Positions 3,520 through 8,298 of a stretch of DNA of 21,783 bases are shown one piece after another. The stretch lies in IMG/VR virus record IMGVR_UViG_3300027793_000313, positions 1-21,783 of that record; one strand, written 5' to 3'. Every line of letters begins with the position of its first letter. Positions within the stretch are counted from its first letter, which is position 1. The notes beneath the pieces are model-generated. The model did not search any database and was not told the origin of the DNA. It saw only the letters and a program-made list of their open reading frames with translations. A program made the translations under genes and the position numbers. Source of the stretch: a virus.

Positions 3520-4041
3520 ATGACACGAACACTGCTCGACATCACCGCAGACATGGAGTCGCTCGACGCGCTACTCGCCGCAGCCGGAGGCGAGATCACG
3601 CCGGACACCGAGGCCACAATCGACGCGTGGTTCGCGGAGAACGAGGCCAATCTCTCAGACAAGGTTGACGGCTACTGCCGCCTCATCAGCGAGATCGAGG
3701 CGCGCGCCGATGTACGCAAGGCCGAGGCCAAGCGCCTTGCCGAACGCGCCCGCGTGGACGAGAACGCCGCCGCCGCGCTTCGCGAACGGCTGCGCTGGAC
3801 GTGGGAGGCAAAGGGACTCGGCAAGTTGAACACGACGCGGTATTGCGTGTCACTCGCGAAGATCGGCGGCAAATCCAAACTCGACCTGCGCTGCGGCGTC
3901 GAGGATCTTCCGGCATGGGCCGTGACCGTCGAGACGGTCGCGAAGGCCAACACCGACGCGATCCGAGAACGGCTTGAGGCTGGCGAGGCGCTGGACTTCG
4001 CCTCGCTCATGGAGCGCGGGAACAGGATCAGCATCCGATGA
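3520..4041 (+). CDS. Gp157-family (Siphovirus Gp157) protein
   Basis: This 173-aa protein matches the layout of the Siphovirus Gp157 family. An N-terminal helix (LLDITADMESLDALLAAAGG) leads into a region around DKVDGYCRLISEIEARADVR, then a long basic coiled coil (about 60-100), then a beta region with SLAKIGGKSKLDL and a closing LPAWAV segment. Family members sit in phage replication or recombination clusters, often beside single-strand annealing proteins, as here. A Streptococcus thermophilus phage homologue was linked to phage resistance; the biochemical role is unsettled. GAGG at 3511-3514 sets the start, and the stop overlaps the next gene as ATGA. Confidence 0.8.
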   Translation: MTRTLLDITADMESLDALLAAAGGEITPDTEATIDAWFAENEANLSDKVDGYCRLISEIEARADVRKAEAKRLAERARVDENAAAALRERLRWTWEAKGLGKLNTTRYCVSLAKIGGKSKLDLRCGVEDLPAWAVTVETVAKANTDAIRERLEAGEALDFASLMERGNRISIR

Positions 4042-4469
4042 AGAACTGGTACTACGAGAACCCATTGGCCGAGGGCGAAGACCCCAACCAATCGCATCTG
4101 TATCGAGCGTTGCTCAAGGACGAGCCAGACCTCGCTCGGGAGAAGTGGCGCAGCCTCTATGTCGGCCTCGCCGCTGTCACGGCCCTGCATCGCCACTCGA
4201 AGCCGACGTCTCGAAATAACGAAACGGTCAGGGTGCTGAACTACGCCGTCGATGCATTGGCGTTTTTTGAGGAGGCGTGTCCTAGTCTTGTTGCGGAACG
4301 AGACGCCGCAATCGAGGCCGTCAAGATCCTGCTCGGAGTGATCGAGAGCGACCCCGATTTCTCCGGCGTGGACACAACGAAGCATTGCACCGACGCGGCT
4401 CGTCAGTTGATGGAACGCCACAATTTGTGGCATATCAACACCGACCATGTGCAGGATGGATTGCCATGA
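4038..4469 (+). CDS. Hypothetical protein, 143 aa
   Basis: ATG 4038 overlaps the Gp157 stop (ATGA), with AGGA ten bases upstream. The protein looks mostly helical, with stretches such as ETVRVLNYAVDALAFFEEAC and VKILLGVIESDPDFSGV, and has two histidine-rich ends but no metal-binding pattern I recognise. The middle (about 4200-4330) uses visibly more A/T-ending codons than its neighbours, for example GCATTGGCGTTTTTTGAGG, hinting at a different origin. Function unknown. Confidence 0.7.
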   Translation: MKNWYYENPLAEGEDPNQSHLYRALLKDEPDLAREKWRSLYVGLAAVTALHRHSKPTSRNNETVRVLNYAVDALAFFEEACPSLVAERDAAIEAVKILLGVIESDPDFSGVDTTKHCTDAARQLMERHNLWHINTDHVQDGLP

Positions 4470-4720
4470 AGCGCGCCTACTACAGCGCCAGCGTGCGCGA
4501 CGGGCTGCGCTCCATCGCGGCCCGCACGATCTGCACGACAGCAGACGAACTGGAGGCAGTCGCGTACATCCGATTGCGCGAGGAGAACCACAACGCTAGG
4601 ATGGCATCTCACGCGCAAGGACGCGCCGAGGCTGACCGCGCTACTGTCTCGCGCGTAGGCCGCTCCTGCGGGCCGGGGACACCCGGCCCGCAGGATTCAA
4701 GACAGGAGACGAGCCAATGA
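4466..4720 (+). CDS. Hypothetical protein, 84 aa
   Basis: Starts at ATG 4466 within the preceding stop (ATGA), with AGGATGG nine bases upstream. The first 55 residues look like a compact helical protein (SVRDGLRSIAARTICTTADELEAVAYIRLR). The final 25 residues (from about VSRVGRSCGPGTPGPQ) are unlike protein and coincide with a perfect 14-bp RNA or DNA hairpin at 4664-4695, so the 3' end may be shaped by regulation of the next gene rather than by protein function. No family recognised. Confidence 0.6.
   Translation: MKRAYYSASVRDGLRSIAARTICTTADELEAVAYIRLREENHNARMASHAQGRAEADRATVSRVGRSCGPGTPGPQDSRQETSQ
4664..4716 (+). promoter_or_regulatory. 14-bp hairpin plus start-box variant (copy 4)
   Basis: TCCTGCGGGCCGGG (4664-4677) pairs perfectly with CCCGGCCCGCAGGA (4682-4695) around loop GACA. 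Seven bases later the box variant CAGGAGACGAGCC (4703-4715) leads to ATG 4717 of the CsrA-like gene. If the top pair opens, GGA is exposed in the loop, compatible with CsrA-type autoregulation. There is no T run, so it is a poor terminator. Confidence 0.55.
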
Positions 4721-4968
4721 CACCACAGAGGACCGAGGCCAAGGGGTTCCCCGGAATGGGGACCGTCTGCCGGATGCTTCGTCGCGGAGACGAGATCCGG
4801 CTGACGCTGCCGGACGGCACGCTTGTCGGAACCATCGGCGTCAAGCAAACGAGCAACCGAGGCGCGAGGATCGCGATGACGATGCGGAGAGAGATCCGCA
4901 TTCAGCGCGAGGGCGCGCCGACCAACGCCGCAGGAGCGGCAGGAGACAGCAATGACGAAGCCACTTGA
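4717..4968 (+). CDS. CsrA-like RNA-binding translational regulator (putative)
   Basis: An 83-aa protein whose residues about 18-67 resemble the CsrA/RsmA fold. RRGDEIRLTLPDGTLVGTIG would be the first strands, then a turn (KQTSNRG), then ARIAMTMRREIRIQREG, which matches the family pattern of a VRIGI-AP-(K/R)-EV-x-(V/I)-HRE ending, with the RE pair where CsrA has its RNA-contacting arginine. CsrA dimers bind GGA motifs in hairpin loops and near ribosome sites, usually repressing translation. Differences: an N-terminal extension of about 15 residues, a two-residue longer strand 1-2 turn, and an unstructured 16-residue tail. ATG 4717 overlaps the previous stop. The call rests on pattern matching; some other small beta protein remains possible. 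Confidence 0.5.
   Translation: MTPQRTEAKGFPGMGTVCRMLRRGDEIRLTLPDGTLVGTIGVKQTSNRGARIAMTMRREIRIQREGAPTNAAGAAGDSNDEAT
4927..4951 (+). promoter_or_regulatory. Hairpin with AGGA loop adjoining start-box (copy 5)
   Basis: GCCGC (4927-4931), loop AGGA (4932-4935), GCGGC (4936-4940) forms a perfect hairpin directly abutting AGGAGACAGCA, whose AGGAGA is the Shine-Dalgarno for ATG 4952. A GGA in a hairpin loop next to a second GGA in the ribosome site is the known architecture of CsrA/RsmA/RsmE targets. It lies within the 3' end of the CsrA-like gene. Confidence 0.55.
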
Positions 4969-5431
4969 ATCAATCGCGCAGATCGGAGCGAGGCTCCGCA
5001 AGAACGACCGTCCAATCGGCGAAGAGGCATTGTATGCGGCTGTGAAGGCCAAGAGGTTCGAGGTGTTCCGCGCAGGGCGCTACTCGTACTCGACATACGA
5101 AGCCGTGCGCGAGTGGTACGACAACGAGTACGCGCCGCCGCATCCGGAGTTGATCCCGACGAATCCCGTCGCGGAGCCGTCCGCGCCGAAGCACGATGCG
5201 ATGATCGCCGCGCTGACCGACAACACCGAGGCAATCCGTGCGCTCACGCGGTCGGTCGCCCGGTTGAGCGGACGGCACTTCATGGATGCCGAGGCCGTCG
5301 CCAAGTTGCTGGAAACAGCCGACCGTCTGAACCGCGCTGGCGATCTGCTCGGCTGCGTCGAGTCCGCGACGATGCGGCTCGTCAACGTGATGAACGCGCT
5401 GCGCGTTCCGCAGGGAGAGAGCCAAGACTGA
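4952..5431 (+). CDS. Hypothetical protein with possible winged-helix N-terminus
   Basis: This 159-aa protein starts at ATG 4952 behind AGGAGA. Residues 10-52 (around LYAAVKAKRFEVFRAGRYSY and TYEAVREWYDNEY) look like the small winged-helix layout of excisionase/MerR-type DNA-binding proteins: a helix, a strand pair, then STYEAVREW as a closing helix. The rest (about 80-150) is helical (ALTDNTEAIRALTRSVARLS, AVAKLLETADRLNRAGDLLG) and could oligomerise. The start overlaps the CsrA-like gene by 17 bases and has the best CsrA-type site in the window. Family unknown. Confidence 0.65.
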   Translation: MTKPLESIAQIGARLRKNDRPIGEEALYAAVKAKRFEVFRAGRYSYSTYEAVREWYDNEYAPPHPELIPTNPVAEPSAPKHDAMIAALTDNTEAIRALTRSVARLSGRHFMDAEAVAKLLETADRLNRAGDLLGCVESATMRLVNVMNALRVPQGESQD

Positions 5432-8230: not shown

Positions 8231-8248
8231 CCCATTGTCCCTTTCTTG

Positions 8249-8287
8249 GCGGCGGCGGTCCTTGCGGGCCGTCGCCGCTTTCTCTTT
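8249..8287 (+). terminator. Rho-independent terminator
   Basis: A 13-bp stem with two G-U wobbles, GCGGCGGCGGTCC (8249-8261) with GGGCCGTCGCCGC (8266-8278), has loop TTGC and is followed by TTTCTCTTT (8279-8287). It lies 18 bases after the last early gene and just before RusA. This is the clearest terminator in the window. Confidence 0.75.
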
Positions 8288-8298
8288 GTGCCGATGAA

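Follow-up and report, generated by a model that had tools for sequence, protein, structure and literature searches.

The 83-residue product of the csr-like gene at positions 4717-4968 (+) is likely to be a CsrA/RsmA-like protein that has diverged far, with a short β1–β5 chain that probably forms a strand-swapped, RNA-binding dimer. CsrA itself is a bacterial regulator of mRNA translation. The gene lies in a 21.8-kb virus record (21,783 nucleotides), the whole of which was analysed and is here called the window. The fold and the alignment register match those of CsrA, and the key arginine is conserved. The CsrA likeness was first called by eye in a preliminary description of the DNA, and it holds on independent evidence from sequence profiles and from structure.

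Sequence evidence for a CsrA-like family

The window protein alone has no match in Pfam, NCBIfam or the PDB, and tblastn with it against phages and plasmids found no CsrA. Its sole match in PHROGs is to phrog_2482 (residues 21-66, E 0.0004), which has no annotated function and is not matched by E. coli CsrA. At E 1e-5, phrog_2482 gave no match in 398 genomes of one phylum, in which the controls were also silent, so that this absence carries no weight. Weak matches to a Roseobacter phage nuclease-like protein, a giant-phage protein and the TOBE segment of a Rubellimicrobium ABC transporter were inspected and dropped. The preliminary description had made its call depend on a profile match to CsrA; the single-sequence search gave no such match, and the profile of the wider family overturns that result.

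The family was gathered by fetching terminase and RecT relatives from IMG/VR and scanning all of their ORFs with a growing profile. About 27 distinct members were obtained, from roughly 40 related contigs of uncultured phages, and in most cases the gene is close to Gp157 or lies 5' of RecT. Apart from one close orthologue (L001), the members are 14-36% identical to the window protein. A profile made without the window protein and L001 still recovers the window ORF among about 24,000 ORFs (jackknife, E 2.4e-9), so the family link is independent of the query. Everywhere except at R64 and the G34/I62 core, the members differ greatly from one another. R64 is among its best-conserved positions, being Arg in 24/27 members and lacking in the other three; G34 is kept in 25/27, and position 62 is I or V in all 27.

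When the members were scanned against Pfam one by one, CsrA was matched by 7/25, more than any other family, with the best member at E 0.00099 and 19.4 bits; the PF02599 gathering score (27 bits) was reached by no family member scanned, nor by the window protein. In a profile comparison by hhalign against 46 CsrA sequences, the family aligned over about 45 columns with a probability of 81-83%, a P of about 1e-5 and a score of 27.9. Four hundred column shuffles, a lenient control because they destroy strand periodicity, gave a mean of 9.6 (sd 2.0) and a maximum of 18.3. The CsrA signal is carried by the family, since the window protein and L001 as a pair gave none in the same comparison. The family HMM matches bona fide bacterial CsrA, with E down to 8e-5, and in a search of 24,068 phage ORFs with the CsrA HMM the family members rank first, if weakly (E 0.16). 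Against PDB sequences the family profile has 18 weak matches, which include RsmF, RsmN and RsmE (E 0.1-0.5).

The hhalign register places E59-I60-R61-I62-Q63-R64-E65 on E39-V40-A41-V42-H43-R44-E45 of CsrA. R64 (codon 4906-4908, +) is thereby aligned with R44, which is an RNA-contacting residue in E. coli CsrA (PMC7366521). The alignment of this arginine by eye, as proposed earlier, had the register right.

Predicted structure

An AlphaFold2 model of the single chain was built on the 27-sequence family alignment; an earlier model from two sequences was poor (pLDDT 60) and was left out. The core of the model is confident, with a mean pLDDT of 87-94 per ten-residue block over residues 21-60, and its strands (26-30, 36-46 and 49-56) have extended flanks. 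The predicted chain has a β1–β5 fold of about 50 residues. The CsrA-like core can be placed at residues 14-66 (4756-4914, +), with residues 67-83 forming a low-confidence tail.

The eight best Foldseek matches of the model in the PDB are all CsrA, RsmA or RsmE (prob 0.90-0.98, TMt 0.61-0.69), at E-values that are weak (0.28 and above). VIA-align gives Z scores of 5.3 and 5.2 for 1vpz and 2bti; its top seven matches are of CsrA type, and the next row, which is unrelated, scores 2.7. For this predicted model the Z scores are middling in absolute terms and it is the gap to the unrelated rows that carries the argument. The CsrA-type matches of both rankings span residues 13-71. Among predicted viral structures (BFVD), the best matches are to phage proteins that bear the annotation carbon storage regulator.

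In the monomer model the outer segments, residues 14-22 and 58-66, are unpaired. The outer strands of a single CsrA chain without its swapped partner are likewise unpaired, and the predicted arrangement is compatible with a strand-swapped dimer of the CsrA type. No C-terminal α-helix follows strand 5 in the model, in which pLDDT is low past residue 56; in the sequence, G-A-P comes directly after RE. Since neither the curated cut-off is reached nor the C-terminal helix present, the window protein is not to be filed as PF02599.

The family shares with CsrA/RsmA/RsmE the strand order, the aligned columns, a GE/GD motif before strand 2, and the R44-equivalent arginine with the acidic residue that follows it, and these proteins are the best PDB matches of the model. 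It differs from them in falling below the Pfam cut-off, in an identity of about 20%, in the absence of the C-terminal helix, in longer β2–β3 and β3–β4 loops and in an N-terminal extension of about 13 residues.

Proposed RNA binding and function

Since R64 takes the place of the arginine with which CsrA contacts RNA, the window protein most likely functions by binding RNA. We infer that the protein dimerises and binds RNA; any GGA specificity, early expression, the direction of regulation and the targets are likewise putative. The probable form of the csr-like protein is a homodimer with strands swapped as in CsrA, which would present two faces to RNA. In each face, R64 and the neighbouring basic residues R61 and R22 could bind single-stranded purine-rich RNA, such as a Shine-Dalgarno region, and early in infection this binding may modulate how well phage and/or host mRNAs are translated or how stable they are.

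A CsrA-like fold might instead act on host CsrA or another protein and not on RNA, for example as a helix-less heterodimeriser or titrator of a host regulator. Such a role would suit a family that lacks the C-terminal helix of CsrA and the segment after it, that has diverged so far outside R64 and the G34/I62 core, and whose phage leaders carry no GGA signal. However, the strong conservation of the RNA-contacting arginine is what would be expected for an RNA ligand, and action on a protein partner appears unlikely.

Start boxes and hairpins

A box of the form CAGGAGAC..ATG occurs at 133, 2583, 2942, 4703 and 4940 of the window (five found, 0.05 expected), and a perfect hairpin lies just upstream of four of the five. 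These hairpins are at 111-127 (6 bp), at 2571-2583 (5 bp), at 4664-4695 (+; 14 bp, loop GACA) and at 4927-4940 (5 bp, loop AGGA). The last is followed by CAGGAGACAGCAATG within 4927-4954 (+), the leader of the next gene (4952). Only the 14-bp hairpin is long enough to stand out at 64% GC. The preliminary observation that GGA-containing start boxes stand next to perfect hairpins is thus correct. The box of the csr-like gene, CAGGAGACGAGCCAATG (4703-4719, +), consists of a Shine-Dalgarno sequence plus the ATG, and the repeated start box is a Shine-Dalgarno sequence. The box at 133 precedes a 31-aa ORF (145-240; box and ORF together 133-240) that encodes a hydrophobic, membrane-like peptide, MPVLDLTPLVVAAVVFGPLAIAAMIGGGSDE.

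From the CsrA-like protein together with the boxes and hairpins the preliminary description had drawn a self-contained phage regulon. In such a regulon the protein would bind GGA in the start boxes and hairpins of early genes, its own included. Beyond the number of boxes, this idea could draw on the AGGA-loop hairpin at 4927-4940 and on the long hairpins 5' of csr-like genes in several lineages. In the operon, 4927-4954 is the sole stretch whose sequence resembles a canonical CsrA target with GGA in the loop, and it may be there by chance; sites like it show no enrichment across the lineage. Against the regulon, the box is a Shine-Dalgarno sequence, and in the carrier phages its GGA falls in a hairpin loop at 43/394 starts, less often than in shuffled upstream sequences (47-66). 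Further 5' than the Shine-Dalgarno, GGA is about as dense as expected and resembles bacterial controls in this, and the leaders of csr-like genes are no higher in GGA than those of other genes (1.71 vs 1.82). The loops of the long csr-like leader hairpins in five lineages (GACA, CCAGT, GAAA, GCAA and TCTCCGCT) contain no GGA. Since the tests of GGA in loops, of GGA density and of GGA in csr-like leaders were all negative, the regulon is unsupported, and we consider it unlikely.

Perfect hairpins with stems of 9 bp or more are concentrated immediately ahead of starts (11/32 vs 1.55 expected). Stems of at least 11 bp precede the csr-like gene in 5/17 lineages, compared with 4/209 other starts, a difference for which P is 1.4e-4 in a post hoc test on lineages that are related. 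These long hairpins, perfect or near-perfect, are at 4664-4695 in the window, at 604-628 in L066, at 1647-1674 in L055 and in the leaders of L092 and L093, and their stems are wholly different in sequence between lineages. The window hairpin lies 21 nt 5' of the csr-like ATG, inside the end of the upstream ORF (4466-4720). In L001 a G-C pair of its stem becomes G-T, and pairing is kept. The long leader hairpins may serve autoregulation, mRNA processing or something else; a classical terminator was rejected for 4664-4695, which has no T run after it.

Two further hairpins were noted in the window. At 8248-8290 a GC-rich stem of 14 pairs with a TTGC loop is followed by TTCTCTTT and is terminator-like, and at 1711-1734 a perfect 10-bp hairpin (ACACACACGC/GCGTGTGTGT) stands 15 nt 5' of a start codon.

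Other small β proteins

The protein could belong among other small β proteins (TOBE, YajC-like or cold-shock-like) and resemble CsrA by convergence. Early single-sequence searches did pick the TOBE segment of an ABC transporter, and YajC has a non-trivial hhalign score of 21.6 against the family. In the same test, however, CsrA outscores YajC as well as CSD (17.4) and TOBE_2 (15.8), and CsrA-type structures head both structural rankings, which makes convergence from another β fold quite improbable.

Gene context

The csr-like gene was called as an ORF with an ATG start and its product contains ARIAMTMRREIRIQREG. It shares the letters ATGA with the end of the upstream ORF (4466-4720, +), and its last 17 nt also belong to the downstream ORF (4952-5431); the operon is tightly packed. 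The upstream ORF belongs to the same packed gene run and adjoins the csr-like gene also in L001 (95%) and L200 (48%). A Sipho_Gp157/Gam-like gene is found at 3520-4041 (+), identified by PF05565 (E 1.9e-26), and in several lineages the Gp157-like gene precedes the csr-like gene by no more than about 1.3 kb.

The L001 orthologue (94% identity) differs from the window gene in 9 synonymous and 5 nonsynonymous codons, and the nonsynonymous changes affect residues 10, 11 and 78-80 only, leaving residues 12-77 unchanged. Given this synonymous bias, indicative of purifying selection, and the position of the changes outside the folded part, the ORF is a real, conserved coding gene under selection. That it is a spurious, functionless frame is scarcely credible: open frames are plentiful at high GC and the searches with the single sequence came back empty, but the synonymous bias and the retention of the family across very diverged phages stand against it.

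Other genes of the window encode RecT, a DUF6378 protein, a metallophosphoesterase, a DNA methylase, a terminase and a prohead protease. The terL and RecT sequences have only distant relatives among isolates, and the window is from an uncultured tailed phage without a close isolate. Rfam and tRNA scans of the whole window gave no matches.

Relation to known phage CsrA proteins

Phage csrA has already been published, and what is new here is the divergent variant. In one survey csrA was present in 30/2517 phages, or 1.2% (PMC7366521), and phage-borne csrA or rsmA is found, for example, in Pseudomonas phages, Erwinia Pavtok, Serratia Parlo and Klebsiella LASTA (PMC7366521, PMC8450108). These cases have in common with the present one a small CsrA-type regulator on a tailed phage. 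The many phage RsmA proteins collected with PF02599-seeded HMMs, at E 1e-4 and with coverage cut-offs, are highly similar to bacterial RsmA (PMC8450108). The present family, in contrast, has diverged, and with PF02599 all of the members tested fall short of E 1e-4. The annotated CsrA-like regulator of Escherichia phage Bas95 / Pondi gets a score from the family HMM (E 0.037) and has a TRREG motif, as in the L055-type family members, but resembles classical CsrA more closely, with 36% identity over 44 residues.

Published surveys of phage CsrA rest on CsrA-seeded profile searches, and the family suggests that uncultured phages hold more diverged CsrA-like regulators than have been counted. A more tentative proposal, which we hold to be possible without favouring it, is that the family is a clade of minimal CsrA-like regulators, specific to phages and evolving fast, which is common in an uncultured tailed-phage lineage, is missed by Pfam-based surveys and, in part of that lineage, is controlled by a hairpin in its own leader that is conserved in structure and variable in sequence. 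Because proteins of the CsrA type are able to rewire the metabolism of the host, and RsmA is a repressor of CRISPR-Cas (PMC8450108), csr-like genes are candidates for a part in taking over the host early. As a natural experiment, the family also bears on what CsrA can do without, the helix having been lost and the arginine kept.

Some members carry additional segments. Those at L053:1439-1708, L055:1698-1967, L057:2421-2684 and L059:461-724 have a C-terminal CxxC...CxxC stretch, so that a zinc ribbon may be joined to their CsrA-like core. Two probable members, L005:8773-9018 and L022:2342-2587, carry a long insert between the third and fourth strands (GTDAKGGTTRRNLK).
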